From assembly GCF_025751495.1 (NCBI RefSeq), contig NZ_JAOWKZ010000004.1, positions 372,001 to 436,000 of the forward strand: a DNA stretch of 64,000 bases, read 5' to 3'. The notes beneath the pieces were generated by a model. It worked only from the letters and a program-made list of their open reading frames with translations. It had not been told where the DNA came from and did not search any database. Below, piece by piece: positions 6,189 through 47,506 of this stretch. The DNA is from Albidovulum litorale (GTDB lineage Bacteria; Pseudomonadota; Alphaproteobacteria; Rhodobacterales; Rhodobacteraceae). How positions within the stretch are numbered: the stretch's first letter is position 1; the number at the start of each line of letters is the position of its first letter. A program made the translations under genes and the position numbers.

Positions 6189-6658
6189 TTGATCTGACCC
6201 GTGCGGCAGAGGTCGCGGGCCATGTGCCTGACCCCGAGATTCCGGCTGTGACCATCGCCGATCTCGGCATCCTGCGCGGGGTCGTGGCTGAGGGCGATGT
6301 CGCCGTGGTGAAACTGTCGCCCACCTATTCCGGCTGCCCCGCCGTATTGGCTATCGAACTGGCGGTGGAGGCGGCATTGCGCGATGCGGGCATACCGGCC
6401 CGGATCGAGCGGGTGATGGAACCCGCCTGGACGACCGACTGGATCACCGAGGAGGGGCGCGACAAGCTTTGGGCCTTTGGCATCGCACCGCCGGTGGCGG
6501 GCGGCAAGGCGACGCTTTTCGCGGCACCCGAGGTCAACTGTCCGCGCTGCGGGTCTGAGGCGACCGAACGGGTCAGCGAGTTCGGCTCCACCCCCTGCAA
6601 GGCGCATTACCGTTGCAAAGGCTGCGGCGAGCCGTTCGACTATTTCAAATGCATCTGA
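6185..6658 (+). CDS. paaD: Phenylacetate degradation protein PaaD (MIP18-type, Fe-S maturation)
   Basis: A 157-aa protein with an N-terminal DUF59/MIP18 domain (DPEIPAVTIADLGILRGV, then SPTYSGCPA with the conserved Cys) and a C-terminal zinc-ribbon-like domain with CPRCG, a lone Cys, CKGCG and a last Cys. PaaD is required for phenylacetyl-CoA epoxidase activity and is thought to help assemble the iron or Fe-S centres of the complex. The start is GTG within the GTGA overlap with paaC. Confidence 0.94.
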   Translation: MIDLTRAAEVAGHVPDPEIPAVTIADLGILRGVVAEGDVAVVKLSPTYSGCPAVLAIELAVEAALRDAGIPARIERVMEPAWTTDWITEEGRDKLWAFGIAPPVAGGKATLFAAPEVNCPRCGSEATERVSEFGSTPCKAHYRCKGCGEPFDYFKCI

Positions 6659-6667
6659 GGGGCGGGC

Positions 6668-7717
6668 ATGGCGTTTCATGAACTGGTTATCCGGGAGGTC
6701 TGCCCCGAGACGGAGAAGGCGGTGCGGCTGGTCTTCAATGTGCCGGACAACCTGCGCGAGACCTTTGCCTTCACCCCGGGCCAGCATCTGACGCTCAGGG
6801 CCGAGGTGAACGGCACGGACATCCGCCGCTCCTACTCCATCGCCACGGCACCGGGGGGCGAGCTTTGCGTCGGCGTCAAGCGGGTGGAGGGCGGCGCGTT
6901 TTCCGGTTTCGCCCAGGGTCTTCGGCCCGGCGACCCGGTGCAGGTGATGCCGCCCGAGGGGCGGTTCATGCTGCGGGGCGAACGGAATGTCCTCCTGATC
7001 GCGGCGGGGTCCGGGATCACGCCGATGATGGCCATCGCCGCCGCGGTACTGACGGATGGTGGTCAGGTGACGCTGGTCTACGGCAACCGCTCGGTCGAGA
7101 CGATCATGTTCCGCGGCGCGCTCGACGCGCTGAAGGACCGCTATCTGGGCCGCTTCACGCTGATCCATGTTCTCAGCCGCGAGGTGCAGGATGTGGACCT
7201 GCTGAACGGGCGGATCGACGCGGCGAAGATCGCGGCACTTGCATCGGCGGGGGTGATTGACCCCTTCGGGGCCGAGGGTGTGTTCCTGTGCGGGCCGGGC
7301 GGTATGATCGAGGAAGTGACAGCGGCGCTGGCGGCGATGGGCGTCGCGCCGGAGCGTATCCATCAGGAGCATTTCTCCCAATCGGGCGAGGCGCCGCGCG
7401 CCCCGTCCCGCGCGGCCGAGAAGGCGGCGGCCGACGGCGTTTCGGTCGAGGTTCTGCTCGACGGGCGGCGGCGGCAGTTCCGCTATGAGAAAAGCGATAC
7501 CGGCATCATCGATGCCGCCGCCCGTCAGGGCGTGGACCTGCCATGGTCCTGCCATGGCGGCATGTGCTGCACCTGCCGTTGCAAGGTGGTCGAGGGCAGG
7601 GCCGAGATGGCCGTGAACTATTCGCTGGAGCCGTGGGAGCTGGAGGCGGGCTTCACGCTCGCCTGCCAGTCGCGTCCGCTGACCGAAAAGCTTGTGCTGG
7701 ATTTCGATGCCGCTTGA
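6668..7717 (+). CDS. paaE: 1,2-phenylacetyl-CoA epoxidase reductase PaaE
   Basis: Electron-transfer subunit passing electrons from NADPH through FAD and a [2Fe-2S] cluster to PaaA. The 349-aa product has the FAD-binding RSYSIA motif near residues 54-59, an NAD(P)-binding GSGITPMMAI segment near 115, and a C-terminal plant-type ferredoxin domain with the WSCHGGMCCTCRCKV cluster motif near 295-307. It is the last clearly paa gene of the operon, 9 nt after paaD. The downstream methyltransferase frame follows closely. Confidence 0.95.
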   Translation: MAFHELVIREVCPETEKAVRLVFNVPDNLRETFAFTPGQHLTLRAEVNGTDIRRSYSIATAPGGELCVGVKRVEGGAFSGFAQGLRPGDPVQVMPPEGRFMLRGERNVLLIAAGSGITPMMAIAAAVLTDGGQVTLVYGNRSVETIMFRGALDALKDRYLGRFTLIHVLSREVQDVDLLNGRIDAAKIAALASAGVIDPFGAEGVFLCGPGGMIEEVTAALAAMGVAPERIHQEHFSQSGEAPRAPSRAAEKAAADGVSVEVLLDGRRRQFRYEKSDTGIIDAAARQGVDLPWSCHGGMCCTCRCKVVEGRAEMAVNYSLEPWELEAGFTLACQSRPLTEKLVLDFDAA

Positions 7718-7748
7718 CGGGCGCGGCCTGTCATGGCCCGATGACGGC

Positions 7749-8378
7749 ATGACAGAGGACAAGCACGATCTGGACGGCGCCTATGCGCTGAAAACGCCCG
7801 GGGATTCGGAGCGTTACTACCGCGACTGGGCGACGAAATACGACGCGGATTTTGCCGAGGCCATGGAATATCGCAGCCCTTCCGTGATCGCTGCGGCCTA
7901 TGCCGCGATGGGTGGCACGGGGCCGGTTCTCGATGTCGGTGCAGGCACCGGGCTGGTGGGCGAAGCGCTTGCACGGGTCGGTATCGGACCGATTGACGGG
8001 ATCGACATCTCGGCCGAGATGCTGGCGGTCGCCGCGCAAAAAGGCGCCTATCGGGATACGGTCAAGGCGGACCTGACGCAGCCGCTGCCGCTGCCGGACG
8101 ACGCCTATGCGGGGTGCATCAGCGCGGGGACCTTCACCACCGGCCATGTCGGACCTGACGCCTTTGCGGAACTCATGCGCATCACCCGGCCTGGCGGATG
8201 TTTTGCGGTGACGGTGCACAGCGCCTTTTACGAGGCGGCGGGATTTGCCGCGCTCTTTCAAAGGCTCGGCGGGAAGATCGCGGATTTTCGGACCGAACCG
8301 TTCCGGATCTATGGCGACGGGGCGGCAGGCGATCACGGTGATGATACCGGCTGGATCGTGAGCTTTCGGAAAGCGTGA
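7749..8378 (+). CDS. Class I SAM-dependent methyltransferase
   Basis: A 209-aa Rossmann-fold methyltransferase. Motif I is clear (GPVLDVGAGTGLVGEAL), followed by the acidic DGIDIS loop for the SAM ribose and a ...RPGGCFAVTVHS strand typical of methyltransferase-11/25 proteins. The N-terminal LKTPGDSERYYRDWATKYDADF resembles Williams-Beuren-type (WBSCR27-like) methyltransferases. Several in-frame starts exist, two of them overlapping the paaE end; I chose the ATG giving MTEDKHDL. It lies in the paa transcription unit, but a role in phenylacetate metabolism is not known. Substrate unknown. Confidence 0.78.
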   Translation: MTEDKHDLDGAYALKTPGDSERYYRDWATKYDADFAEAMEYRSPSVIAAAYAAMGGTGPVLDVGAGTGLVGEALARVGIGPIDGIDISAEMLAVAAQKGAYRDTVKADLTQPLPLPDDAYAGCISAGTFTTGHVGPDAFAELMRITRPGGCFAVTVHSAFYEAAGFAALFQRLGGKIADFRTEPFRIYGDGAAGDHGDDTGWIVSFRKA

Positions 8379-8693
8379 GGGCGGGGGCAGACCCCCGGTA
8401 AAGCGTGTTTAAACCCACCTTACGTTTCGGGGAACGAGGAGGTCGTGGCCGGGCCGTTAGCCCGTTCGGCTGCGAACCTGTATCCAAATCGGAACAACCT
8501 TGATGTTTCTTCCGGAACGGGATTGAATTTGACTACGTTCCCGCGTTTTTGCGGGCATAAGAGGTGCGATCAGCCGAAAAGAACCCTTCAGGCCACAAAT
8601 TCGTCCGAATTGACGGTGTAGTAGGGCAACAACTGGCGGTCTCGTGGCGCGGGGCGGGATGCTCCGCTGGTTATTTTGTGGAGGCGAACAGGC
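8379..8693. other. Intergenic region before the Hint-domain gene
   Basis: About 315 bp without a gene. It holds a decayed copy of the GTAAGGTGG palindromic repeat at its left end, a TTGACT hexamer at 8529-8534 that could be a -35 element, and a short CCCGC-gttttt-GCGGG dyad at 8540-8555 just downstream of it. The last 50 bases include a GTGGAGG ribosome site. I see no reading frame or RNA gene that I can support. Confidence 0.6.
8397..8424. repeat. Decayed copy of the GTAAGGTGG...CCACCTTAC repeat
   Basis: The right arm CCACCTTAC is intact and the centre reads TGTTTAAAC, but the left arm (GTAAAGCGT) has diverged from GTAAGGTGG. The intact copy lies beyond the Hint gene at 9.85 kb, so the gene is bracketed by the pair. 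Confidence 0.65.
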
Positions 8694-9767
8694 ATGGCAG
8701 TTTCACCGACTTTTTGGGCGCGGGCCGACAGTCTCACGGCCAACAACTCGACCCTGAACCCGATCAAGGCGTCAGGCGGTTCCGGCGCATTTCCGGCGAC
8801 GCAGATTTATTTCGAAAGCGGCACGCTCGGTTCCAACACGACCGGCGATCTGACGCTTGAGACTGGAGCTGGCGGTTTCGATCCCGACACCACGATCTGG
8901 ATCGGTGGCACGGAGTACAATTTCCAGTACCAGCTGACCGGTACGCTGCCCGGCAACTCTCAGGTTCCGGCCGCGCTTGCGGGCAAGGAGGTCAGCGTGG
9001 TCACCGTGCTGAACTATCCCTCGAGCGGCCTTTCAACTGAACTGTTCTTCGTGACCGATGGTTCGGGGACGCAGACGCTGATGAACCAGATCGGCAACGG
9101 CGCCATTCCGCTGGAGCTCGTCACCACAAACCCCAACCCGGTCTGCTTCCTGCGGGGCACGCTGATCGCGACGCCCAAGGGCGAGGTTCCGGTCGAGGTG
9201 CTGAAGGCCGGTGACGAGGTGCTGACCGCCTCGGGTGCCACCGCCACCGTGCGCTTCGCCGCCGCGCGTGAATTGACCCTGATGGAGCTGCTGCTCAACC
9301 CCGACATGCGTCCGGTCTGCATCCCGCAAGGTGCGATGGGCGAGGGCCTGCCGCGCGCCGATCTCTGGGTTTCGCCGCAGCACCGGGTGCTGCTGCGCGG
9401 CTGGGCGACGGAAATGCTGTTCGGCGAGGACGAGGTACTGGTCGCTGCAAAGCATCTGAAATTCGCGCCGACGCTGCGCCGTCCGGCGCGCCCCGAGGCG
9501 GTGGAGTATTTCCATCTGATGCTCGACCGCCATGACATCGTGCTGTCGAACGGGATTGAGACTGAGAGTCTCTTCCCCGGCGATACCGCCATCGCTAGTC
9601 TGACCGAGGATGCGCGGGCCGAGATGGCGCTTGTGTTCCCCGAATACGCCGCCGACTGGACGCTCTACGGGCCCACCGCGCGACGCACGCTGTCGGCGCG
9701 CGAGGCCGAGGCGCTTATGAAAAAGGTGCCGCCGCTGGGCGCGGGTGAGGTCAAGGCCGTCGCCTGA
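8694..9767 (+). CDS. Hint-domain (Hedgehog/intein-type) protein
   Basis: A 357-aa protein. Residues 1-145 form a Gly/Thr/Ser-rich beta-type region with no family I recognise. Residues about 150-300 are a Hint_2-type domain: nucleophile-position Cys151 in CFLRGTLIATPKGEVPVE, then WVSPQHRVLL (226-234) and YFHLMLDRHDIVLSNGIETES (272-292). These domains are very common in Rhodobacteraceae and are thought to allow self-cleavage or linkage of an exported N-terminal part. No signal peptide is seen, so export, if any, would need another route. The start is the ATG behind GTGGAGG. It is monocistronic, with a terminator after it. Confidence 0.85.
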   Translation: MAVSPTFWARADSLTANNSTLNPIKASGGSGAFPATQIYFESGTLGSNTTGDLTLETGAGGFDPDTTIWIGGTEYNFQYQLTGTLPGNSQVPAALAGKEVSVVTVLNYPSSGLSTELFFVTDGSGTQTLMNQIGNGAIPLELVTTNPNPVCFLRGTLIATPKGEVPVEVLKAGDEVLTASGATATVRFAAARELTLMELLLNPDMRPVCIPQGAMGEGLPRADLWVSPQHRVLLRGWATEMLFGEDEVLVAAKHLKFAPTLRRPARPEAVEYFHLMLDRHDIVLSNGIETESLFPGDTAIASLTEDARAEMALVFPEYAADWTLYGPTARRTLSAREAEALMKKVPPLGAGEVKAVA

Positions 9768-9790
9768 GGAACCTTCCGCAAGGAATGAAC

Positions 9791-9816
9791 AAGGGCCGGC
9801 ATTGCCGGCCCTTTGT
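9791..9816 (+). terminator. Terminator after the Hint-domain gene
   Basis: A 10-bp stem AAGGGCCGGC / GCCGGCCCTT with an ATT loop, followed by tgtcgtt, 23 nt after the stop codon. Confidence 0.8.
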
Positions 9817-9845
9817 CGTTTCCGCAGGCGTCGCGGCAGCCACCG

Positions 9846-9873
9846 GGTAAGGTGGGTTTAAATCCACCTTACG
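9846..9873. repeat. Palindromic repeat GTAAGGTGG-N8-CCACCTTAC
   Basis: Perfect 9-bp arms around GTTTAAAT. From memory this palindrome recurs between genes in many Rhodobacteraceae chromosomes. Here its right arm supplies the pxpC stop codon (TAA on the minus strand), so it overlaps the 3' end of that gene by 5 nt. A decayed copy lies upstream of the Hint gene. Confidence 0.75.
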
Positions 9874-10894
9874 TCTGCGGAACGTCGAGGTCGTCTCCCG
9901 CGGTTACCCCCCCGACAAGTTGATAGGCGAGCAGATCGCTCATGTCGCGCGGGTCGCGGATCAGTGGGCACAGGCTGCGCCTGAGGCCGTTGCGTCTGGT
10001 GTTCTCCTGCCGCTCGATGGCCACTGCCTCCTCCAGCGTGACGAAGCGGAACCTCAGCCGCGTGCCCGCCGGGGCCTGCGCTACGCGTGGCAGATCGGCG
10101 GGTAGGACCGAGCCGATGCGGGGATAGCCGCCGGTCGTCTGGCATTCGGACAAAAGGACGAAGGGTGTGCCGTCGCCTGTGACCTGGATGTCGCCGGGCA
10201 CGATAATTTCGGAGAGGATATTGAGCCCGGCCTCGGTTTTGAACCCCTCGCCCCCGGGCACGGCGCGCACGCCCATCCGGTTGCCGCGTGTATCGCGGTG
10301 GAACTCTGTCGCCTCGAACCGGGCGAGTGTCGCGGCGTCGAAGAAACTGGTCTGCAGGCTCGGCACCAGCCGGATCGTCCCGCCGTCGAAGCGGCTTTCG
10401 GCATCGATGAGGAGGCCGGTCTCTGTCCCGGTATCGGGCCCGACCGGCAGCCGGTCATTGGCGGCGAGGGGTGCGCCGACCCCGGCTGCAAGATGCGCCG
10501 AACGGGCGCCGAGGTGTTCGGGCGTGGCCACGCCACCGCCAAGATGAAGGTAACCGTAGACGCCCCGTTCCGCCGCGCCGATGGTCAGTCGCGCGCCGGC
10601 GGGCAAAAGGTGGCTTGCATTCCAGACAAGCGCCGCGCCGTCGATATCGGCCCGCATAGGCGCGCCGGTCAGCGCGATGCGCAGGTCGGCGCTCGCCTCG
10701 AACACGCCGCCCATCCCGGCCATTTCGAGTGTGGCATGGGTGACAGGCTGGCCAAGCAGCGCCGCGCCTTCATGCAGCGCCAGCCGGTCGGCCGCGCCGC
10801 CGCGCGAAAGCCCCATGGCCAGATAGCCGGTCCGTCCCAGATCCTGCACCGTGACCCCGGGACCCGCGCGGTGGATGATCAGCGCGCGCGTCAC
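9869..10894 (-). CDS. pxpC: 5-oxoprolinase subunit C (biotin-dependent carboxyltransferase-like)
   Basis: PxpC (KipA/YbgK family) works with PxpB and PxpA in ATP-dependent opening of 5-oxoproline to glutamate. The product has the family N-terminus RALIIHRAGPGVTVQDLGRTGYLAMGL-type start, then MAGMGGVFEA, HLGGGVATPEHLG and a SECQTTGGYPRIGSV signature near the C-terminus. I chose the GTG that forms a GTGA overlap with pxpB; an ATG five codons upstream is possible. The frame also stays open far into pxpB, which is coincidental. pxpA is not adjacent. Confidence 0.88.
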   Translation of the reverse strand: MTRALIIHRAGPGVTVQDLGRTGYLAMGLSRGGAADRLALHEGAALLGQPVTHATLEMAGMGGVFEASADLRIALTGAPMRADIDGAALVWNASHLLPAGARLTIGAAERGVYGYLHLGGGVATPEHLGARSAHLAAGVGAPLAANDRLPVGPDTGTETGLLIDAESRFDGGTIRLVPSLQTSFFDAATLARFEATEFHRDTRGNRMGVRAVPGGEGFKTEAGLNILSEIIVPGDIQVTGDGTPFVLLSECQTTGGYPRIGSVLPADLPRVAQAPAGTRLRFRFVTLEEAVAIERQENTRRNGLRRSLCPLIRDPRDMSDLLAYQLVGGVTAGDDLDVPQT

Positions 10895-11658
10895 CGGATC
10901 GCCTCGCATGTCGCGCCGCCATCTGGTCCGGACGTACGGATCTGTGCGAATGCCTCCGGCGTGACGGCGGGAAACATCGCCTCGTCGCCCGGGCGCAGGA
11001 CGAAGGGGGTTTCCGCCTCGGGCCGGAAGAGCCGGATCGCGGTCTGGCCGACATGGCGCCATCCGGTCGGGGTGGTGACGGAAAAGAGCACGAGTTGGCG
11101 GATCGCCACCACGAGCGCACCGACAGGCACGCTTTCCGTTAGGGCGGTCTGGCGGGGAATGTTCCATTCCGGCGGCAATACCCCGAGATAGGGCTGGCCA
11201 GGTGCGAAGCCGATGGTCTGGACCCGGACCCGGGTATTGGACAACGTGTCAATGGCCCGATCCGCCGTGACGCCTGCGGCGGCTGCAGCTTCGTCGAGCT
11301 GGGGGGCGAGATCGGTGCCGTAGACCGTGGGTATGCGCCAGAGCCGCCGTCCGCCGGGCATCGGCGCGCCGTACCAGTCGCGGTCGGCGAGCAGGTGTTC
11401 GAGCCGCGCGCGCATGGTCGCGTGATCGAAGTGCAGAGGATCGAACCGCAGATAGGTGGAGGTGAGCGAGGTCGCAGTTTCCTCCACCCCGTCCCAACCC
11501 GCCCGGTCGATTGCATCGCGAAAGGCGAGTGCCGCGCGGTTCGCGGGTTCGTCCAGCCGGTCCGCGAAGCTGACAAGGAAGCCGTCGACCCCTACCGTCA
11601 GGATGCGGGGCCATCCGGTTGTCCGGTTCATCGCTTCTGCGTTCGCCATGCCCGTCAC
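10891..11658 (-). CDS. pxpB: 5-oxoprolinase subunit B (KipI-like)
   Basis: A 255-aa partner of PxpC. Typical features are the strand pattern ILTVGVDGFLVSFADRLD near the N-terminus, VPTVYGTDLAPQLDE-like core (here RRLWRIPTVYGTDL), and the cyclophilin-like C-terminal domain with FAPGQPYLGVLP and TPTGWRHVGQT. It is translationally coupled to pxpC. A Met four codons in is an alternative start. In Bacillus the homologue KipI inhibits a sensor kinase, but the two-gene arrangement here favours the oxoprolinase role. Confidence 0.87.
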   Translation of the reverse strand: MTGMANAEAMNRTTGWPRILTVGVDGFLVSFADRLDEPANRAALAFRDAIDRAGWDGVEETATSLTSTYLRFDPLHFDHATMRARLEHLLADRDWYGAPMPGGRRLWRIPTVYGTDLAPQLDEAAAAAGVTADRAIDTLSNTRVRVQTIGFAPGQPYLGVLPPEWNIPRQTALTESVPVGALVVAIRQLVLFSVTTPTGWRHVGQTAIRLFRPEAETPFVLRPGDEAMFPAVTPEAFAQIRTSGPDGGATCEAIR

Positions 11659-11676
11659 CCCGGCGCTCTCACCCGG

Positions 11677-12840
11677 TCACAGCTTGCCGAGAAGGGCGGG
11701 TGTCGGCCAGGCGTCGGCTGGCAGACCGAGGCGCATCTGCTCTTTCTGCACCGCCTCGCGGGTCTTTTCACCGAGGATGCCGTCGATCCCGCCGACATCA
11801 TGGCCGCGCGCCTCAAGCTTCTGCTGCAGCGCTTTCATCTGGCCAGCGGAAAGCCCCGGTTCGGGCTGGCCCGGATCGTAGACCGGCGCGCCTTCAAGCC
11901 GCGTGGCGAAATAGGCCGCCGTGGTGACGTAGACGAAGCTCTTGTTCCATTCGAAATAGACGTGGAAATTCGGGTAGGCCATGAAGGCAGGCCCCTTGCG
12001 ACCCATCGGCAGGAGGACCGAGCCTTTCAGCCCCTTCGCCAGCCCTCCCGAGCGGCCGCGCACCCCCATCCGTTCCCATTCGGCGGTGCTGAGCGTGTGG
12101 TTCAGGCCGGTTTTCGACCAGTCGAGCCCCTCGGGCACGGTGATTTCCTGCAGCCATGGTTCATTGCGTCGCCAGCCGAGCCCGCTGAGCATCTTGGCCC
12201 CCGACATCAGCGCATCGGGTGGCGAGGTCTTGAGCGAGACATGGCCGTCACCGTCGCCATCGACGCCGTTCCTGAGAATATCCTCGGGCAGCATCTGCAC
12301 CATGCCGACCTCGCCGGCCCAGGCGCCCTTGGTGCGGGCCGGGTCGAAATCGCCGCGGGCATAGAGTTCCAGCGCGGCGAAGATCTGCGGCCGGAAGAGA
12401 TGCGGCCTGCGGCAGTCATGGGAAAGGGTCACGAGTGCGTTCAGCGTGGTGAAATCGCCCTGAACCGCGCCGTAATCGGTTTCGAGCGCCCAGAACGCCA
12501 ACAGCACGCCGGTTGCGATCCCGTAGTCGCGCTGGATGCGCTGGAAGGTGCTGGCGTATTTCTGGCCGTTCCGTTGCCCGTTCACCATGCGGTTCTTGCT
12601 GATCACGGCGCGGGAAAACTCGATGAAGTCCTTGCGGAAGACGCCCTGCGAACGGTCGGCCTTCAGAACCGCGCCGTCCTGCCGGACACCGGCAAAGAAC
12701 GCGTCCACCCGGTCGGCAGGGTGGCCCGCCGCGCGGGCTTCGGCCTTCAGACCGGCGACGAAATCACCGAATCCACCGCCGCAGGCGAGCGTCGTTTGGG
12801 GCAGGGCGGCAAGGGCAAGGGCGGCAAGGATGATGCGCAT
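11677..12840 (-). CDS. Lytic murein transglycosylase (MltB family) with peptidoglycan-binding domain
   Basis: A 387-aa periplasmic enzyme that cleaves peptidoglycan glycan strands. Residues 1-19 are a signal peptide (IILAALALAALPQTTLA) with Cys20 just after it; whether this is a lipobox is unclear. The SLT_2 domain carries the catalytic Glu120 in AFWALETDYGAVQGDF and the GEVGMVQMLPEDI segment. A C-terminal PG_binding_1 domain (residues about 325-385: LSAGQMKALQQKLEARGH...GIDGILGEKT) anchors it to the wall. It is transcribed away from the CtrA-box region at 12.92 kb, so cell-cycle control is possible. Confidence 0.92.
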   Translation of the reverse strand: MRIILAALALAALPQTTLACGGGFGDFVAGLKAEARAAGHPADRVDAFFAGVRQDGAVLKADRSQGVFRKDFIEFSRAVISKNRMVNGQRNGQKYASTFQRIQRDYGIATGVLLAFWALETDYGAVQGDFTTLNALVTLSHDCRRPHLFRPQIFAALELYARGDFDPARTKGAWAGEVGMVQMLPEDILRNGVDGDGDGHVSLKTSPPDALMSGAKMLSGLGWRRNEPWLQEITVPEGLDWSKTGLNHTLSTAEWERMGVRGRSGGLAKGLKGSVLLPMGRKGPAFMAYPNFHVYFEWNKSFVYVTTAAYFATRLEGAPVYDPGQPEPGLSAGQMKALQQKLEARGHDVGGIDGILGEKTREAVQKEQMRLGLPADAWPTPALLGKL

Positions 12841-12923
12841 GGCTACCTCTCGTCTGTCCGGGCCGAGACTACCAAGCCCGGCGCCACTTACAACCGGCGG
12901 AAACCCGCCATCGGCGGAGGTCG

Positions 12924-12938
12924 TTAAGACTTGGTTAA
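12924..12938. promoter_or_regulatory. Perfect CtrA box TTAA-N7-TTAA
   Basis: TTAAGACTTGGTTAA matches the alphaproteobacterial CtrA consensus TTAA-N7-TTAA exactly and is followed by C, the preferred next base. It lies between the divergent transglycosylase and receiver genes, 76 nt before the receiver start, inside an A/T-rich stretch (12924-12965) that also contains a further TTAAC. Confidence 0.65.
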
Positions 12939-13013
12939 CGATTGTTTATGATTCTTAACAAATCGCAAACGACCGGGTGGAATTACACGATCCGGTGGTC
13001 CTCAGGAGGCTTC

Positions 13014-13376
13014 ATGCGCGTGCTCATTGTTGAGAGCGACCCGAACCTCGGATGGCTTTGGAAGCGGCATCTGGAACGCTTCGCCATGACGGTAACGCTT
13101 GCGGCGGATCAGGACGCCGCGGTGAACCATCTGGAACATGAGGATGTGGAGATCATCGTGATGGACCTCGTCCTCAACCGGGGCAGCGCCATCGCGGTGG
13201 CGGATTATGCCGCCTATCGCCGCCCAAAGGCCAAGGTGGTGTTCGTGACCAATACCAGCTTCTTCTCGGATGGATCGATCTTTCAGCACATCTCCAATGC
13301 CTGCGCCTTCCTGCCCTCGGCGACCCCGCCAGAGGATATCGCCGCCGTGGTGGAGCATTACGGCACCAGCGCCTGA
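13014..13376 (+). CDS. Single-domain receiver (CheY-like) protein
   Basis: A 120-aa stand-alone receiver with no output domain. The acidic pocket (Glu7, Asp9) and phospho-acceptor Asp51 in VEIIVMDLVLNRG are present, and VFVTNTS gives the Thr. The conserved Lys of the usual KP motif is missing; the position reads FLPSATPP. It may signal by phosphorylation with altered kinetics or by binding alone. The ATG follows a CAGGAGG site; an upstream in-frame extension is rejected. No kinase is adjacent. A perfect CtrA box upstream suggests cell-cycle or motility-linked expression. Confidence 0.82.
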   Translation: MRVLIVESDPNLGWLWKRHLERFAMTVTLAADQDAAVNHLEHEDVEIIVMDLVLNRGSAIAVADYAAYRRPKAKVVFVTNTSFFSDGSIFQHISNACAFLPSATPPEDIAAVVEHYGTSA

Positions 13377-13379
13377 CGC

Positions 13380-14354
13380 TCACCCGCGCCCATGCGGGGC
13401 AGCGAAGTCGAGAACCGGGTTGATCGGGATGATCCGGTTCGGATTGATCGTGTCGTGGCTGTAATGGTAGTGCCGCACGATATGGTCGAACCGGACGGTC
13501 GCGGCGACGCCGGGCTGTTGGTAAAGATCGCGGGTATAGGCCCAGAGATTGGGATAATCGATCAGCCGTCGCCGGTTGCACTTGAAATGCAGGTGATAGA
13601 CCGGATCAAAGCGCACGAGCGTGGTGAAGAGACGCCAGTCAGCCTCGGTCAGCCTGTTACCCATCAGCCAGCGCTGACGTGACAGGCGGTCCTCCAGCCA
13701 GTCGAGCGTGTCAAAGAGCGCGGTGACGGCGGCGTCATAGGGTTCCTGCCGCGTGGCGAAACCGGCCTTGTAGACGCCGTTGTTGACCGTGCTGTAAATG
13801 CGCGCATTCATCGTCTCGATGTCGCCCCGTAGATCGCGGGGCCAGAAGTCGCGGTCATTTCCCGTCAGACCGTCGAAGGCCGAATTGAACATCCGGATGA
13901 TTTCGGAGCTTTCGTTGGAAACGATTGTCGCGCGCTTCCGGTCCCACAGAACCGGAACGGTGACGCGGCCGGTATAATGGGGGTCGGCCTTGGTATAGAT
14001 GTCGCGCAGGAAGGGCAGACCGTGGAGATGATCGCCGGTCGCGCCGGGGAAATCCGTGGCGAAGGTCCAGCCGTCCTGCAACATGTCGGGATGCACGACC
14101 GAGACGCCGATCAGGCCGCCGAGGCCCTTCAGCGCGCGAAAAATCAGGGTCCGGTGCGCCCAGGGACAGGCATAGGAGACATAAAGGTGATAGCGTCCGG
14201 CCTCGGCCGGAAACCCGCCATCACCCGAGGGGCCGGGCGCGCCGTCAGTGGTGATCCAGTTCCGGAACCCGGCATCGGCCCGCTTGAACGCGCCGCCGGT
14301 GTTTGAAGTGTCGTACCATTCGGTCGACCATTTCCCGTCGATCAGTCTGCCCAT
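13380..14354 (-). CDS. Glutathionyl-hydroquinone reductase (Xi-class GST, EcgA/YqjG/ECM4 type)
   Basis: A 324-aa cytoplasmic enzyme reducing glutathionyl-(hydro)quinones with glutathione. The nucleophile is Cys63 in LYVSYACPWAHRTL, the Xi-class signature, followed by VSVVHPDML and the VPVLWDRKRATIVSNESSEIIRMFN thioredoxin-fold segment. The helical C-terminal domain carries LTEADWRLFTTLVRFDPVYHLHFK. Length is normal for the family. It ends 3 nt from the convergent receiver gene. It could serve quinones from aromatic degradation, but no operon supports that. Confidence 0.92.
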   Translation of the reverse strand: MGRLIDGKWSTEWYDTSNTGGAFKRADAGFRNWITTDGAPGPSGDGGFPAEAGRYHLYVSYACPWAHRTLIFRALKGLGGLIGVSVVHPDMLQDGWTFATDFPGATGDHLHGLPFLRDIYTKADPHYTGRVTVPVLWDRKRATIVSNESSEIIRMFNSAFDGLTGNDRDFWPRDLRGDIETMNARIYSTVNNGVYKAGFATRQEPYDAAVTALFDTLDWLEDRLSRQRWLMGNRLTEADWRLFTTLVRFDPVYHLHFKCNRRRLIDYPNLWAYTRDLYQQPGVAATVRFDHIVRHYHYSHDTINPNRIIPINPVLDFAAPHGRG

Positions 14355-14577
14355 CGTATATTCCTTTGTCGTTCCCTCCTTCAGGTAGAGCTAGCGATGG
14401 GCGCAGGCTACGGGCATGGGCGCGGAGATGCTCTGCACATGCGCACAGGTTTGTTCGCGGGGGTGAAACAAAATCACAAAACTGTCACCTATTGGGCACA
14501 AATCCTTCTTGACCAAAAGGTTAACTTGATTTTGAGGACCGCTGGATCATGCTGGAGGGGTGGGGGGAGTGCGTGTA

Positions 14578-14928
14578 ATGACGGATATGTTGCCAAAGGA
14601 AGTGCGTGCCGGGCTGGAAGAGGCGCGCAAGCGTGATCTGAAACGCCGGTCGCGTCTGAGGGTGATGGTCGGGGACGAAATCTATCCAATCCTGAAATTC
14701 TGGGAGACGGGTTTCGCGCTCGACGCCGATCAGGTGCAGCATCTGCGCGGGCTGGTCGATATCTATGACGGCACGCGCCATCTCTATACGTCGCTGATCA
14801 TCGCGTCGGATGTGGAAGAGGGCGACCTGATCTGCACGATGAAGCGCTCGACCATCGCCCATGATTCCGTGCCGCTCGATTACGTGCGCGAGTCGGATGC
14901 ACCGGTGGGGTACCTGCCGCGCAACTGA
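14578..14928 (+). CDS. Conserved hypothetical protein, 116 aa
   Basis: Not a family I can name. The protein is soluble: no signal peptide or membrane segment, a basic N-terminal helix (EEARKRDLKRRSRLRV), then a mixed region containing ILKFWETGFALDADQVQHLRG and a strand-rich end (HLYTSLIIASDVEEGDLICTMKRST). It looks like a short globular protein that could bind nucleic acid or a partner. A TTAA-N7-TTGA sequence at 14521-14535, one base off a CtrA box, lies upstream. The ATG giving MTDMLPKEV is preferred over a start six codons earlier. Confidence 0.65.
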   Translation: MTDMLPKEVRAGLEEARKRDLKRRSRLRVMVGDEIYPILKFWETGFALDADQVQHLRGLVDIYDGTRHLYTSLIIASDVEEGDLICTMKRSTIAHDSVPLDYVRESDAPVGYLPRN

Positions 14929-14939
14929 GCCGTATCGGC

Positions 14940-14985
14940 GCCGTGGGTTTCGGCGGGAGTATTTCCGGCAAGAAGAACCCGGATG
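14940..14985. repeat. Decayed copy of the GGAGTATTT...AAGAAGAA repeat
   Basis: The 3' part of the repeat is recognisable (GGGAGTATTTCC then AAGAAGAACCC), but the GC hairpin that precedes it elsewhere is eroded. It sits between the converging hypothetical and L,D-transpeptidase genes. Confidence 0.5.
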
Positions 14986-15531
14986 TCAGGGTCGGATTTC
15001 GACCTCGGTTCCGATGCGCGTGATGCGCCAAAGCTCCTCGATTTCCGTGTCTGAGACGGCGATGCAGCCTTCGGTCCAGTCGTGGCGGAGCGTCGCCTTG
15101 CCGTAAAAGGCGTTCGGCTGGCCATGGATGAAGATGTCACCGCCGGGGGAATAGCCGCCTGCCGAGGCGCGGATCAGGTCGTCTGCCTGCGGATAGTTGA
15201 TGCCGAGCGACAGGTGGAACTTGCTTTCGGCATTGCGGCGGTCGATGCGGAATGTGCCCTCAGGCGTGCGCCCGTCGCCCTGCCGCACCTTGTCGCCTTC
15301 AGGCGCGAACCCCAGCGCGACTGGATAGGTCCGCAGGGCAACGCCGTCGCGAAAGACGGTCAGTTGCCGTGCCGCCTTTTCGATCAGGATGCGGTCGATC
15401 TGCACCGTCAGCGGCGGCAGAGGCGCGGGCGGAAGCGGTGCAGGGAAACGGTATTGGTAAAGCGCCAGCATCCCCAGCCCGAGCGCGATGGTCAGGATGG
15501 TCAGCTGGAAAAGCCGGCGCAGAAACCTCAT
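14986..15531 (-). CDS. L,D-transpeptidase (YkuD family), membrane-anchored
   Basis: A 181-aa envelope enzyme likely forming L,D-crosslinks in peptidoglycan or attaching proteins to it. An N-terminal membrane anchor spans about residues 8-27 (FQLTILTIALGLGMLALY). The YkuD domain carries His136 (FIHGQPN) and the catalytic Cys156 in WTEGCIAVSDTEIEELW. The frame continues upstream through the next gene; the ATG chosen gives a 4-nt ATGA overlap with that gene's stop and begins with a proper membrane anchor. Confidence 0.9.
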   Translation of the reverse strand: MRFLRRLFQLTILTIALGLGMLALYQYRFPAPLPPAPLPPLTVQIDRILIEKAARQLTVFRDGVALRTYPVALGFAPEGDKVRQGDGRTPEGTFRIDRRNAESKFHLSLGINYPQADDLIRASAGGYSPGGDIFIHGQPNAFYGKATLRHDWTEGCIAVSDTEIEELWRITRIGTEVEIRP

Positions 15532-16700
15532 TGCAGGTCGCCGAAGGCCCTCTGCATCCGTTCGACGGCATCCTCGATCCGGGCCTGCGGCCGGGCAATG
15601 TTGAAGCGCAGGAAGCTTTCGCCGCCAGCGCCGAAGCCGGGGCCGGGGCTCGCCGCGATGCGGGCAACGTCGCGGGTCCGCGCGTTGAATTCGTCGAATG
15701 TCATGCCGGTACCAGAAAAATCGACCCAGGCCAGGAAGGTCGATTGCAGGGGCAGGGACCGCACCCCTGGGATCGCGTTGATGCCCGCATCGAAGATTTT
15801 TCGCATCCGGTCCAGATGTGCGACCTGCGCGTCGACCCATTCGGCGCCTTCCGGCGAATAGGCGGCGGTCACCATCTTTACCCCGAGTCCGTTCGGCTGT
15901 GAGTCGAGCTCGCGGAGGCGTTTCACCATCTGTGCCCGGAGCGTCGGATCGGAGATGATCATATTGCCCGTTCGCTGACCGGCGATGTTGAAGGTCTTAG
16001 ATGCGGCGGTCATTGAGATCAAACGGTCGTGCGCCTCTGGCGCTGCGACATCCATCGGCACAAAGGTTTCGCCGGGATAGACGAGATCGTGGTGCACCTC
16101 ATCCGAAATGATCCTAAGCCCGTTCCGTACCGCGAATTCCGCCACCGCGCGTAATTCTTCGGCTGTCCAGATCCGGCCCGAGGGGTTTTGCGGCGAGCAC
16201 CAGATCAGGAGTGTTTCCCGCCCGGTCATCCGGCTTTGGGCGTCGTCCAGATCAAGCTCATACCGGTCGCCAACGCGAGCGAGCGGGCATTCCGTCAAGA
16301 CCCGGCCTGCGTTTCTGATCTTGTGCGCGAACTCGTGATAGACGGGCGAAAAAACCACCACGGCATCGCCCGGCTCGGTCCAGACGTCGATGGAGAGCGC
16401 GATCGCGTTGCCGAGACCCTGTGCGGTCAGAATCCAGTCGGGATCGATCTGCCATTTGTGACGGGTCGCCATCCACCAGCGGATCGCCTCATGATAGTCG
16501 GAATAATCGGCGAAATAGCCGAAGATGCCGAACTCTGCCTCCTTGCGGACGATATCACGGACACAAGGCGCGGTTGGATAGTCCGAATCGGCGGTCCACA
16601 TCGCCAGCCCGTCCTCCGGCGAGACGCCAAGAAGTTTTTCCATAAGGTCCCATTGTGAACAGTGGGAGCCGCGCCGGTCGATGATGTCGTTGAAGGTCAT
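15528..16700 (-). CDS. PLP-dependent C-S lyase, MalY/PatB family aminotransferase fold
   Basis: A 390-aa class I/II aminotransferase-fold enzyme. Lys235 in MTAASKTFNIAGQRTGN binds PLP. ISDEVHHDLVYPG gives the pyridine-nitrogen Asp200, and CSPQNPSGR holds the conserved Asn172. The DEVHxDLVY and SKTFNIAG motifs favour the PatB/MalY branch, which cleaves cystathionine or other cysteine conjugates, over a true aminotransferase. It is coupled by 4 nt to the downstream L,D-transpeptidase gene, an unusual pairing. The substrate is inferred only at the level of beta-C-S lyase. Confidence 0.88.
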   Translation of the reverse strand: MTFNDIIDRRGSHCSQWDLMEKLLGVSPEDGLAMWTADSDYPTAPCVRDIVRKEAEFGIFGYFADYSDYHEAIRWWMATRHKWQIDPDWILTAQGLGNAIALSIDVWTEPGDAVVVFSPVYHEFAHKIRNAGRVLTECPLARVGDRYELDLDDAQSRMTGRETLLIWCSPQNPSGRIWTAEELRAVAEFAVRNGLRIISDEVHHDLVYPGETFVPMDVAAPEAHDRLISMTAASKTFNIAGQRTGNMIISDPTLRAQMVKRLRELDSQPNGLGVKMVTAAYSPEGAEWVDAQVAHLDRMRKIFDAGINAIPGVRSLPLQSTFLAWVDFSGTGMTFDEFNARTRDVARIAASPGPGFGAGGESFLRFNIARPQARIEDAVERMQRAFGDLQ

Positions 16701-16798
16701 GGCCGCCTCTTGCAGATCGGCATGACCCTAGCCATCCTTGCGTCGGGTGCAAGGGGCCGGGCATTGCACGTGCGCATAGCTTGCCCTAAATCACCCGC

Positions 16799-17320
16799 AT
16801 GACGATACGCCCGATCCTGATCCATCCCGACCCGCGCCTGAAAAAGCGCTGCGATCCCGTGACTGAAATCACGGACGACCTGCGCGCGGCTGCCGAGGAC
16901 ATGCTGGAAACCATGTATGACGCGCCCGGCGTCGGCCTTGCCGGGCCGCAGGTCGGGCTGATGTCCCGCATTCTGGTCATGGATTGCGTGAAGGACCCCG
17001 AGGCCAAGCCGCGCCCGATGGTGCTGATGAACCCGGAAGTCACCTGGGCCTCGGAGGAAACCAACACCTATGAGGAGGGCTGCCTGTCGATCCCCGAACA
17101 ATATGCCGATGTCACCCGCCCGAAAGAGGTCAAGGTGCGCTGGCTGGGGTTGGATGGCGAGGCGCATGAAGAGCAGTTCGGCGGGCTTTGGGCCACTTGC
17201 GTCCAGCACGAGATCGACCATTTGGACGGCAAGCTGTTCATCGACTACCTGACGCCGTTGAAGCGCCAGCTGATCACCCGCAAGATGCAGAAGCTGAAGC
17301 GCGAAAAGGCGCGTCTGTGA
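16799..17320 (+). CDS. def: Peptide deformylase (active copy)
   Basis: Removes the formyl group from the initiator Met of nascent proteins. The 173-aa product keeps all three catalytic motifs: GVGLAGPQVG (44-53), EGCLS (93-97, metal ligand Cys95) and QHEIDHLDG (136-144, His ligands with catalytic Glu138). It is the first of a three-gene unit with a degenerate paralogue and fmt, coupling deformylation to formylation of the initiator tRNA. The GTGA overlap with the next gene means translation is coupled. Confidence 0.96.
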   Translation: MTIRPILIHPDPRLKKRCDPVTEITDDLRAAAEDMLETMYDAPGVGLAGPQVGLMSRILVMDCVKDPEAKPRPMVLMNPEVTWASEETNTYEEGCLSIPEQYADVTRPKEVKVRWLGLDGEAHEEQFGGLWATCVQHEIDHLDGKLFIDYLTPLKRQLITRKMQKLKREKARL

Positions 17321-17820
17321 CGGTCCGGCCCTTCGTTCCCTATCCCGACAAGAGGCTGCGCACGGCTGCCGAACCTGTCGCCGAGATCAATGAGACCGTG
17401 CGGATGATCTGGGACGACATGGTCGAGACGATGGATGCGATGCCGGGTTATGGCCTTGCCGCGCCGCAAATCGGCATCATGCTGCGGCTGGCGGTCGTCG
17501 ATTGTTCCGACAAGCGCGGGCAGGCGGTGAAATTGGCTAACCCCGAGGTGCTGCACGCCTCGGTCCAGATGCGCAGGCACGATGAGGCAAGTCCAAACCT
17601 GCCGGGCGTTTTCGCAGGCATTGAACGGCCCCGCGCGGTAACCGTCAGGTTCCTGAACGAGGTGGGTGAGGTCGAAGAGCGCGATTTCGTCGGGCTCTGG
17701 GCGACGAGCGTTCAGCATCAGATCGACCATCTGAACGGCAAGATGTTCATCGACCATCTGTCGCCCGTGCGGAAGAAGATGCTGGTCGCGAAGGCCGAAA
17801 AGCTGAGGAAGCGCGGATAG
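17317..17820 (+). CDS. Peptide deformylase paralogue lacking catalytic residues
   Basis: A 167-aa deformylase-fold protein with GYGLAAPQIG (44-53) intact. The second motif reads EASPNLPG (90-97) instead of EGCLS, so the metal-ligand Cys is replaced (Ser92). The third reads QHQIDHLNG, so the catalytic Glu is Gln135. With both changes, normal metal-dependent deformylase chemistry is unlikely. The frame is intact, the usual length, and starts with a GTG overlapping def, so it is maintained rather than decaying. A ribosome-binding or regulatory role, or help to the active copy, is possible. Confidence 0.88.
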   Translation: MTVRPFVPYPDKRLRTAAEPVAEINETVRMIWDDMVETMDAMPGYGLAAPQIGIMLRLAVVDCSDKRGQAVKLANPEVLHASVQMRRHDEASPNLPGVFAGIERPRAVTVRFLNEVGEVEERDFVGLWATSVQHQIDHLNGKMFIDHLSPVRKKMLVAKAEKLRKRG

Positions 17821-44803: not shown

Positions 44804-46014
44804 TGAGGGATCAGACGATGAATTTTTTCGACGCCCTTGAAACCCGCTCTGCCGATGAGCGCACCGGTGCGCAGCTTCAGGCGCTGAACGGGCAGCTTGC
44901 GCGCGTGGCGGCGGCGGCGGGCGCCTGCCGGATCGACGGTAAGGCGTTGGCCGATCTCACCGATCTCGCCGGGCTGCCGGTGCTTCGCAAGTCCGACCTC
45001 GTCGCATGGCAGAAGGACAACCCGCCCTTCGGCGGCATCCTGACGTCGAACATCGCCCATATCTTCCAGTCGCCCGGGCCGATCTATGAGCCGGGCGGCG
45101 TCAGCCATGACTGGTGGCGGATGGGGCGCTTCCTGCATGCCTGCGGGATCGGGTCGCAGGATATTGTCCAGAACTGCTTCGGCTATCATCTGACGCCTGC
45201 CGGCATGATCTTTGAAAATGGCGCCCGTGCCGTTGGCGCGAAAGTCCTGCCGGCCGGGACCGGCCAGACCGACCTTCAGGTCCGTGCCGCTGCGGATATC
45301 GGCACAACGGCCTATGCCGGAACGCCGGACTACCTGAAGGTCATCCTCGACCGGGCCGAAGAGATGGGTGAGGCGCTGAAGATCACCAAGGCCGCCGTCG
45401 GGGGCGGGGCGCTCTTCCCGTCGCTTCGTGCAGAATATGCCGACCGGGGAATTGCCTGCCTGCAATGTTACGCCACCGCCGATCTTGGCAATATCGCCTA
45501 TGAAAGCCCTGCGATGGAGGGGATGATCGTCGATGAAGGCGTCATCGTCGAAATCGTCCGCCCCGGCACCGGCGACCCGGTTCCCGAAGGCGAGGTGGGT
45601 GAGGTCGTGGTGACGACACTGAACCCCGACTACCCGCTGATCCGCTTCGCGACCGGGGACCTTTCGGCGGTCATGTCGGGTCCGTCCCCCTGCGGGCGCA
45701 CGAACATGCGCATCAAGGGCTGGATGGGCCGCGCCGACCAGACGACCAAGATCAAGGGCATGTTCGTACGCCCCGAACAGGTCGCCGACCTTGTCGCCCG
45801 CCATGCCGAGGTTGCCCGCGCAAGGGTGATCGCCACCCGAGAAGGCGAGATGGACGTGATGACCGTGCGCATCGAAGCGCCGGGCGGGGAGCCTGCGCGC
45901 TATGAAGGCTCTGTCGCTTCGGTCCTGAAGATGAAGGGGCGGGTGGAGGTCGTGCCGCCGGGCAGCCTGCCCAATGACGGCAAGGTCATCGACGACCAGC
46001 GGGTCTATGAGTGA
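44803..46014 (+). CDS. PaaK-like (phenylacetate-CoA ligase family) protein with degenerate ATP loop
   Basis: A 403-aa member of the phenylacetate-CoA ligase branch of adenylate-forming enzymes. The C-terminal lobe looks normal (YPLIRFATGDLSAV, the WMGRADQTTKIKGMFVRPEQV hinge/core). The phosphate-binding loop, SSGTTGxP in PaaK, reads QSPGPIYEP (residues about 86-94), and the usual acidic Y-x-x-T-E region is CYATADLG. It may be inactive, use another donor, or bind acyl-CoA. It is the last gene of the importer operon, 1 nt overlapping the ATPase. Confidence 0.82.
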   Translation: MRDQTMNFFDALETRSADERTGAQLQALNGQLARVAAAAGACRIDGKALADLTDLAGLPVLRKSDLVAWQKDNPPFGGILTSNIAHIFQSPGPIYEPGGVSHDWWRMGRFLHACGIGSQDIVQNCFGYHLTPAGMIFENGARAVGAKVLPAGTGQTDLQVRAAADIGTTAYAGTPDYLKVILDRAEEMGEALKITKAAVGGGALFPSLRAEYADRGIACLQCYATADLGNIAYESPAMEGMIVDEGVIVEIVRPGTGDPVPEGEVGEVVVTTLNPDYPLIRFATGDLSAVMSGPSPCGRTNMRIKGWMGRADQTTKIKGMFVRPEQVADLVARHAEVARARVIATREGEMDVMTVRIEAPGGEPARYEGSVASVLKMKGRVEVVPPGSLPNDGKVIDDQRVYE

Positions 46015-46411
46015 CCGCCCGGTAAGGCGCTCACCCGTCTTCGCCAAAGCTTTAGTGATCGGCCTTGAGCCCGATGTCGGCATCTTTGGTTCAGCAATCG
46101 CGCGGGCGCGGCATGCCGTTCGTCTCAGTCGATCGAGTGAGACGTCGTTTGAGAGCCTTTAAGCGAGGCATTGGTCGTGTCAGCCCTGTGTTCCAACTTC
46201 TTCGGAGCTGGGGCCGGACAGAGCACACAACCATCAGCTGATCGCCACTGGCCGGTTAATCTTTGATCTTGGCGAACCACCGACGTCTGCTACTGTCTGT
46301 TGGAGTGGTGACTTTATGCTCTGACCCTCCGTTTCCTTCGCGTTCTTGTTTTCCGCGACAGGGGGCAGTGCACGCATCCTGCCAGTCGTTCTACGGATGA
46401 AGGTGTCTTAA
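46015..46411. other. Intergenic region, low-complexity to the neighbours, no gene seen
   Basis: About 400 bp with lower GC than its surroundings, especially toward the right. Apart from the CGTCTCA/TGAGACG dyad I see no reading frame, tRNA or terminator. It probably contains the promoter of the Popeye-like gene and may be one edge of a transferred segment. Confidence 0.5.
46121..46144. promoter_or_regulatory. Inverted repeat CGTCTCA-N10-TGAGACG
   Basis: Perfect 7-bp arms around GTCGATCGAG (itself containing the palindrome TCGA), 107 nt after the PaaK-like stop. It may be an operator or a weak hairpin; no T-run follows. Confidence 0.35.
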
Positions 46412-47110
46412 TTGGAGCTTACGTTAGAGTCAGCCTTTTCCGCCGGTGGTCTGGTTGGCCATCTGTCGTACCTCTTGCTTGTGACATCCATGCTGATGCG
46501 GGTCATGTGGATCCTTCGCGTGCTGGTTATCGCGTCAGCATTTGTCGCCATTGCTTACGACCTCGTGTGGCTGAAAGACCCGGTTGGTGTGTTTTGGGAA
46601 AGTCTCTTGGTGTTGGTGAATATCGTCCAGTTGTCTGTGACTTATGCCCAGAACAGGCTCGAGAAGTTTAACAGCATTGAATCCGCCTTTGTTCACAAGG
46701 CGTTTCCGGGTTTGAGTAATTCTCTGAAGCGAAAGATACTTAATCAAGGTTCTTGGGTGGAAGCGGACGAAGGAGCCGAATTAACAAGGGCCGGCGAGCC
46801 GGCCAGGCGCCTTGTGTACATCGCCGATGGCGAGGTGGAGATTATTGTGAACAGCAACGTCGTCGGCCGATGTGGAAATGGTGATTTCATCGGCGAACTG
46901 ACCGTGCTGTCGGGGGAGCCGGCAACAGGAACGGCGATCACCAAGCGCCGGACCCATTATTGGGCAATTGCCGATGACGAATTGCGAAGACTGGTGGCTT
47001 CAAACGAAGAGATCAGTCAATCTGTGCAGGCGTGTTTTCACACCAACATGCTGTCAAAGCTGATTGCGGCAAATCATCAGCTGCAAAAAGCGGGTGGTCT
47101 GGTCAATTGA
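46412..47110 (+). CDS. Three-helix membrane protein with cNMP-binding-like domain (Popeye-like)
   Basis: A 232-aa protein. Three hydrophobic helices (about 17-30, 32-51, 60-78) are followed by a cytoplasmic region whose DGEVEIIVNSNVVGRCGNGDFIGELTVLSG (residues 139-168) is a cyclic-nucleotide-binding core. The phosphate cassette has GEL (161-163), but the usual P-R-x-A-T reads PATGTA, so the cAMP-contacting Arg is missing. This three-helix plus cNMP-fold layout, with LVNIVQLSVTYAQNRLEKF near the third helix, resembles eukaryotic Popeye proteins. The start is TTG after AAGGTG; no ATG fits. Codon use is AT-richer than the neighbours. No operon partner. Confidence 0.75.
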   Translation: MELTLESAFSAGGLVGHLSYLLLVTSMLMRVMWILRVLVIASAFVAIAYDLVWLKDPVGVFWESLLVLVNIVQLSVTYAQNRLEKFNSIESAFVHKAFPGLSNSLKRKILNQGSWVEADEGAELTRAGEPARRLVYIADGEVEIIVNSNVVGRCGNGDFIGELTVLSGEPATGTAITKRRTHYWAIADDELRRLVASNEEISQSVQACFHTNMLSKLIAANHQLQKAGGLVN

Positions 47111-47179
47111 GATTCTGATCGGTCGGTTAAGCTGCGGGCGGTTTGCAAAGCAGTGGCCGAGCCGGTCATCACCCGCCCG

Positions 47180-47506
47180 TCAACCCGCATTCATCCGTTC
47201 AATATAGGCGCGCAGTTCCTCGGCCTCGTGGCGGGCGTCGCGCAACCCGTCCATTGCCGCGCGCAGTTCGGCCTGGCTCTGGTGCAGCTGGTTCGACAGC
47301 TCCGCCTCGCGCGTCTCCAGAAAGTCGATGGCCTTGTCGCGGGTTTCTTCGGCGTCGTGAAGCTCACGCGCCATCTTTTCCAGATCGCCCATCTCGGCCT
47401 GCGTCACGCGGGTCAGACGGTGCAAAAGCCAGCAGGCGAACCAGCCGAGCGCGAAGGCGACAAAGAGGATGATCGCGGTGGCGAAGATGAATTCGGTTCT
47501 GTTCAT
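47180..47506 (-). CDS. Membrane-anchored coiled-coil protein of unknown function
   Basis: A 108-aa protein with one N-terminal membrane helix (FIFATAIILFVAFALGWFACWL, residues about 6-27) and a long charged heptad region (EMGDLEKMARELHDAEETRDKAIDFLE... to near 100) predicted to be a coiled coil. No family named with certainty. It lies 47 nt downstream of the OmpA-family gene on the same strand and may be co-transcribed, which would suggest an envelope role. Confidence 0.7.
   Translation of the reverse strand: MNRTEFIFATAIILFVAFALGWFACWLLHRLTRVTQAEMGDLEKMARELHDAEETRDKAIDFLETREAELSNQLHQSQAELRAAMDGLRDARHEAEELRAYIERMNAG

Follow-up and report, generated by a model that had tools for sequence, protein, structure and literature searches.

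What does a protein built like the animal Popeye domain-containing (POPDC) proteins do in a bacterium, and how far does the likeness go? The question is raised by a gene for 232 amino acids (46412..47110, + strand) in the window, that is, in the whole 64,000-nucleotide stretch of Albidovulum litorale DNA considered here, which the initial annotation had described as encoding a bacterial Popeye-like protein. Mutations in POPDC genes are associated with disease of heart rhythm and muscle, and both the action of POPDC proteins on adenylyl cyclase and the origin of POPDC are questions that this bacterial family touches. Reviews place POPDC genes in animals and some protozoa and name CRP/CAP as the closest sequence outside POPDC (PMC5872366, PMC4918794, PMC6562197, PMC6952887, PMC8706714). 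No work on bacterial POPDC was recognized among open PMC papers; bacterial members of PF04831, the POPDC1-3 family, may already be listed in Pfam or InterPro. What is described here is a POPDC-like membrane module carried on a bacterial cyclic-nucleotide-binding domain (CNBD), in a protein that by the features tested is not a POPDC member.

The gene and its locus

The open reading frame is intact and starts with a TTG that directly follows an in-frame TAA. A Shine-Dalgarno-like AAGGTG, as read from the sequence (46400..46405, + strand), is separated from the TTG by 6 nt, and the close orthologue of Defluviimonas aestuarii (88% protein identity) has an ATG at the same codon. Gene order around this orthologue is the same as at the window locus, with two aligned blocks of 90% and 92% identity between which positions 46016-46260 of the window remain unaligned. 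The window gene is under purifying selection (dN 0.068, dS 0.73, dN/dS about 0.09 against the orthologue) and belongs to a specific family, and is therefore more than a product of chance. Its presence is patchy: a search of 21 other genomes of the genus found a copy of high identity in G001 alone, besides a weak CNBD match in G018. All NCBIfam matches of the protein were far below cut-off, and a PHROGs search returned a single weak match (E 0.015), to a family without an assigned function.

The gene stands alone: the upstream ORF on the same strand stops at 46014 and the downstream ORF is convergent (the choice of real genes being our own reading). A promoter and terminator scan of positions 45900-47300 gave 0 and 2 sites, respectively, against 0.5 and 1.7 in shuffled sequence. 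The GC content is 0.526, compared with 0.61-0.66 in three neighboring genes. The initial annotation was thus right about the TTG start, the solitary position, and the AT-richness of the gene.

Predicted architecture

The relatives, which share a layout of three membrane helices followed by a CNBD (3TM-CNBD), are referred to here as types A, B, C, and Y, the window protein being A-type. An AF2 model of the window protein was built from a 75-row alignment (A3) that comprises, by best profile, 72 A-type, 2 B-type, and 1 C-type sequences; its mean pLDDT is 82.9 and its pTM 0.67. The predicted order is three helices, two linker helices, a beta barrel, and C-terminal helices including a long one. 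The membrane helices span aa 11-28 (46442..46495), aa 32-54 with a conserved L35-R36 (46505..46573), and aa 57-82, where W62 and N70 are conserved (46580..46657), and are modeled with moderate pLDDT (63-81 per ten-residue stretch over aa 11-90). They are followed by the linker helices (aa 88-97 and 103-112; 46673..46747), the CNBD barrel (aa 114-187; 46751..46972), and the C-terminal helices (aa 188-226; 46973..47089), all on the + strand. The N-terminus is probably outside and the CNBD cytosolic by the positive-inside rule, because R30 and R36 lie around the first turn and R82 and K85 just past helix 3.

The CNBD matches PF00027 (E 5.5e-13) and aligns by VIA-align to solved CNBDs, namely 3mdp (Z 18.1, rmsd 1.8, 129 aligned), MtbCRP 3i54 (Z 17.1, rmsd 2.9, 142 aligned), and the PycTIR CNBD 8jsk (Z 16.7, rmsd 3.2, 139 aligned). 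The structure prediction, which had been proposed as a check, thus agrees with the earlier description of three membrane helices followed by a CNBD fold. The Foldseek and VIA-align lists are dominated by the CNBD (residues 84-229) and are uninformative on the membrane module. The fold is that of CRP/MlotiK1-type CNBDs; unlike these, the window protein lacks a DNA-binding domain, a channel pore, and the phosphate-binding Arg.

A conserved Lys marks the C-terminal helix, as in POPDC. This residue (K216 in the window protein) is present in 70/75 rows of A3 and 27/28 B-type rows, and the 29 C/Y-type rows have 26 Lys and 3 Arg. Four positions before it, all 28 B-type rows have D/E and the A3 rows have Asp (35), Asn (31), or other residues. 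In POPDC1, K260 and D256 have been modeled as contacting S201 of the DSPE motif (PMC9830914), a spacing identical to that of the B-type. By this spacing, the bacterial Lys and D/E may correspond to K260 and D256; the window protein differs in having Asn212 rather than Asp.

The CNBD pocket

The pocket sequence of the window protein reads FIGELTVLSGEPATGTA. Its altered phosphate-binding cassette extends from G161 to A175 (46892..46936, + strand) and has the order G161-E162-L ... P170-A171-T-G-T-A. When it is aligned with the Arg209 motif of PKA (PMC2246266), Glu162 is kept and Ala171 occupies the position of Arg209. The same substitution runs through the family: this position is Ala in 83/84 A-type rows (Ser in the remaining one) and in 26/26 C-type rows, while the 28 B-type rows contain Ala (13), Ser (11), Thr (3), or Phe (1). 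In alignment A3 the column contains 72 Ala, 2 Thr, and 1 Ser, with Glu in 75/75 rows. The missing phosphate-contacting Arg, which had already been noticed from the sequence, is thus a fixed trait of the A-, B-, and C-types. The pocket seems to have been altered and not to be in decay, because Arg occurs in none of these rows while the cassette Glu is present in 84/85 A-type, 26/26 C-type, and 27/28 B-type rows. In addition, almost every A- and C-type row retains the pattern Ala-[ST]-Ala. Compared by profile, the A-type CNBD is closer to the C-type (score 282), which has the same Arg-to-Ala change, than to the B-type (206). Two Y-type sequences, L017 from another genome and L023 from the host, retain a CRP-like Arg. 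In one relative (L037, genome G169; PF04831 E 2.2e-8), GG replaces GE, so that both canonical pocket residues are gone.

POPDC proteins likewise bind cAMP without the canonical Arg, through the motifs DSPE and FQVT (PMC5872366, PMC6952887). Neither motif is found in the window protein, and the bacterial pocket reads G-E-x8-A-[ST]-A-T instead. A second PKA residue of interest is Gly169, in the beta2-beta3 loop. Its equivalent in the window protein we take to be Ala131, the column having been assigned by eye against the PKA sequence; so placed, it is Gly in 0/75, 1/28 (B-type), and 0/29 rows. Gly169 is said to co-vary with Arg209, and both are tied to the cAMP response (PMC2246266).

The absence of both equivalents is consistent with a pocket whose ligand is not a cyclic nucleotide and is instead a nucleoside or another small molecule, the link of the sister types to cyclases being indirect. 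The precedent for this is the trypanosome PKAR, which lacks the Arg and binds purine nucleosides (PMC10959531). In that protein, an extra Glu gives the preference for nucleosides (PMC10959531); at the matching position, two residues after the conserved Glu, no Glu is found in 87 A-type, 28 C-type, or 28 B-type rows, and the window protein has Thr164. The clustering of sister types with cyclases, described below, also favors a cyclic nucleotide, and a ligand of another kind is regarded as unlikely, although it is the alternative that survives best. Somewhat less probable still is a purely structural, ligand-free CNBD used for assembly only, like the CNBHD of KCNH channels. The missing phosphate Arg would fit such a role, and KCNH-type CNBHDs (4f8a, 6syg) are also among the Foldseek matches. 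Against it, the Glu and Ala-[ST]-Ala persist in almost every A- and C-type row, which suggests a pocket in use, and among the nearest structures are CNBDs with bound cAMP or cUMP (3i54, 8jsk), although a common fold in itself shows no function.

The membrane module and its likeness to POPDC

The POPDC profile PF04831 matches aa 14-88 of the window protein (46451..46675, + strand) with E 0.014 and 16.0 bits against the whole protein, under the curated cut-off of 28.1, and with E 0.0014 and 19.2 bits against its first 113 residues. Six relatives (L036-L041) are above the cut-off. At E<=0.01 the profile matches 67/75 A3 rows, the window protein being among the 8 misses, and 20/28 B-type rows, compared with 0/29 C/Y-type rows (26 C, 3 Y), which have the same 3TM-CNBD layout and include two proteins of the host genome (L015, L023). 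When four proteins were cut in two, PF04831 was found in 4/4 membrane halves and, at E<=1, in 0/4 cytosolic halves, which match PF00027; in L036, the score is 39.6 bits for the whole protein and 35.2 for the membrane half, so that the remainder contributes a little.

At the level of genomes, PF04831 gave matches in 19 of the 295 genomes searched within the same family (6 above the curated cut-off) and none in 14 control genomes, nor any at E<=0.001 in the window's own genome. A search of 398 genomes of the phylum yielded matches in 3, one of them new, and the feature is thus sparse across the phylum. All 22 genome matches at E<=0.001 (21, plus 1 from the phylum search) lie immediately upstream of a CNBD, as tested with a profile built from C-type CNBDs. 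Membrane profiles were also compared directly with hhalign after removal of the rows shared between them (L159, L165, L166). The A and B profiles matched at 96.6% (E 6e-10, 78 columns), A and C at 93.7% (E 2e-7) over only 36 columns, and B and C at 21%; reversed profiles and two unrelated membrane families, used as controls, reached at most 4.7%. Searching PDB sequences with a profile of the membrane region (A6, made from 21 segments picked by eye) gave one weak match (E 0.44) and no POPDC chain.

The POPDC likeness therefore resides in the membrane module. What had been claimed for the window protein stands for its family, in whose membrane half the profile is found; it does not stand for the protein alone, which falls under the cut-off of that same profile check, lacks DSPE and FQVT, and has by profile an ordinary bacterial CNBD as its cytosolic half. 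POPDC membership of the window protein was rejected on these features (PF00027-type cytosolic half, neither motif, 16.0 against 28.1 bits).

It could be argued that the likeness is convergence, an unrelated three-helix anchor having been fused to a CNBD in bacteria. The sub-threshold score of the window protein and the 0/4 cytosolic halves would agree with this, as would the match of another profile, PF10688 (Imp-YgjV), to 13/75 A3 rows in the membrane region (best E 1.3e-4), which also hints at a wider membrane family. On the other hand, PF04831 is limited to the A and B types among proteins of one layout, and all 22 of its genome matches sit just before a CNBD; convergence is thus considered improbable, much as the ligand-free domain is.

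Class III cyclase neighborhoods

Two class III cyclases (PF00211) were detected in the host genome and no class I cyclase (PF01295). Both genes are on contig C3, the window being on C9, and both belong to one island (L167; positions 5933-17632), which also carries three 3TM-CNBD genes and a gene for a SulP-like CNBD protein. The island comprises an AAA-type cyclase (5933-9247, - strand), a C-type (9496-10257, -) and a B-type 3TM-CNBD gene (10482-11210, +), the SulP-CNBD gene (11372-13558, -), a FecR-like gene (13838-14695, +), a CHASE2-type cyclase (14752-16956, +), and a Y-type 3TM-CNBD gene (17003-17632, +), where the labels AAA, SulP, FecR-like, and CHASE2 are our own reading of the sequences. 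The GC content of four measured island genes (0.53-0.56) is like that of the window gene, and these four genes are AT-richer than the window average. The order FecR-like, cyclase, C-type, B-type recurs across genomes of the order (L168-L176, L194), and no literature on a FecR/CHASE2/cyclase cluster with CNBD neighbors was recognized among open PMC papers.

A survey of 60 regions of 6-19 kb around relatives, in which the two host cyclases were used as tblastn queries (E<=1e-6), found a class III cyclase in 30/60 sister-type regions and in 0/20 control regions, the latter set by hand to round coordinates, most of them within the genomes that also supplied the 60 regions. By batch, cyclases were found in 14/20 regions of the first set (half of it picked for paired or dense B and C genes, none by a known cyclase), 9/20 around C-type matches, and 7/20 around B-type matches. 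Fisher p values are 2e-5 for the whole survey (30/60) and 5e-4 when only the last 40 regions are counted, both to be read with the knowledge that related genomes (e.g., G351 and G416) are not independent. In L192 and L193 the cyclase is 6-8 kb away.

The window subtype is, by contrast with its sisters, usually an orphan. No cyclase gene lies beside the window gene, and among 80 named loci with flanks of up to 6 kb only two contain a cyclase; these are L115 and a locus with a C-type family gene, L159. The link to cyclases is thus by family and not by the gene's own locus, and the pathway, called uncertain in the initial annotation, has been narrowed through the sister types only. In one locus (L177) an A-type frame lies between C-type and cyclase frames on one strand. 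Among the matches listed, A- and C-type genes co-occur in 8/20 versus 27/370 genomes, a hand-typed count that ignores kinship and carries little weight.

That the window protein is a defense effector like PycTM of the Pycsar systems (described in PMC11224242), which would break the membrane once a phage triggers its cyclase, is very improbable: it has membrane helices and a CNBD that matches a PycTIR model (E 6.1e-10), and many sister loci include a cyclase, the two of the island matching PycC profiles (best 7.1e-26 and 7.3e-19), but the protein has no TIR domain, its gene has no accompanying cyclase, the PycC matches may reflect no more than similarity among class III cyclases in general, several A-type genes lie among ribosomal protein genes, and the matched models are those of PycC and of the CNBD of TIR effectors, none of these being named a membrane effector.

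Proposed function

The reading preferred here, tentatively and with almost an even chance of being right, is that the window protein is a membrane nucleotide receptor with a re-tooled CNBD pocket whose likeliest partner is a class III cyclase. It would be a small inner-membrane receptor in which a POPDC-like three-helix module carries a cytosolic CNBD. The re-tooled pocket, with its Glu kept and a near-invariant Ala in place of the phosphate Arg, is predicted most likely to bind a cyclic nucleotide or a close relative. The receptor may pair through its predicted C-terminal helix and report ligand occupancy to a membrane partner, most likely a class III cyclase, as feedback or as a scaffold; the orphan window gene would act in trans with the cyclases of contig C3.

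A nucleotide-sensing membrane CNBD that acts on or with class III cyclases is proposed by analogy with animal POPDC1 and AC9. POPDC1 binds and scaffolds AC9, an interaction reported as cAMP-independent (PMC9724675), and according to a further report BVES/POPDC1 is a feedback regulator that inhibits ADCY9 (PMC10063672).

Besides this analogy, the receptor reading draws on the distribution of PF04831 (67/75 and 20/28 against 0/29), the A-B membrane match (96.6%), the kept Glu, the cyclases of 30/60 sister-type regions, the grouping of the host cyclases with three 3TM-CNBD genes in a genome without detected PF01295, and the arrangement in L177. Against it count the lack of a cyclase near the window gene and the 2/80 named loci, the absent Arg209 and Gly169 equivalents, Asn212 where the B-type has D/E, the A-C membrane link of 93.7% over only 36 columns (the C-type being often found near cyclases), and the sub-threshold PF04831 score of the window protein alone.

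It is possible, although doubtful, that animal POPDC proteins and a bacterial family of cyclase-linked membrane CNBD receptors have a common ancestor, or that the former arose from the latter. If so, POPDC would have inherited its binding to AC9 from an old partnership, and the phosphate Arg would have been lost before animals arose. The small bacterial family, with its common layout, Arg-less pocket, and cyclase-linked sister types, offers a tractable model for ligand binding and cyclase control.

Other neighborhoods of A-type genes

In 18/80 named loci, including those of Ruegeria and Shimia, the A-type gene is inside a ribosomal protein gene cluster, before rplN and, where seen, after rplP (L124, L126, L129, L131, L132, L134, L135, L137, L141-L145, L149, L157, L158, L161, L162); these neighbors are presumed ribosomal from short sequence motifs. 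Near the Rhizobiales-type A genes (L128, L138-L140, L148, L151-L153), some neighboring ORFs look, as far as the sequences can be read, like guaB and guaA.
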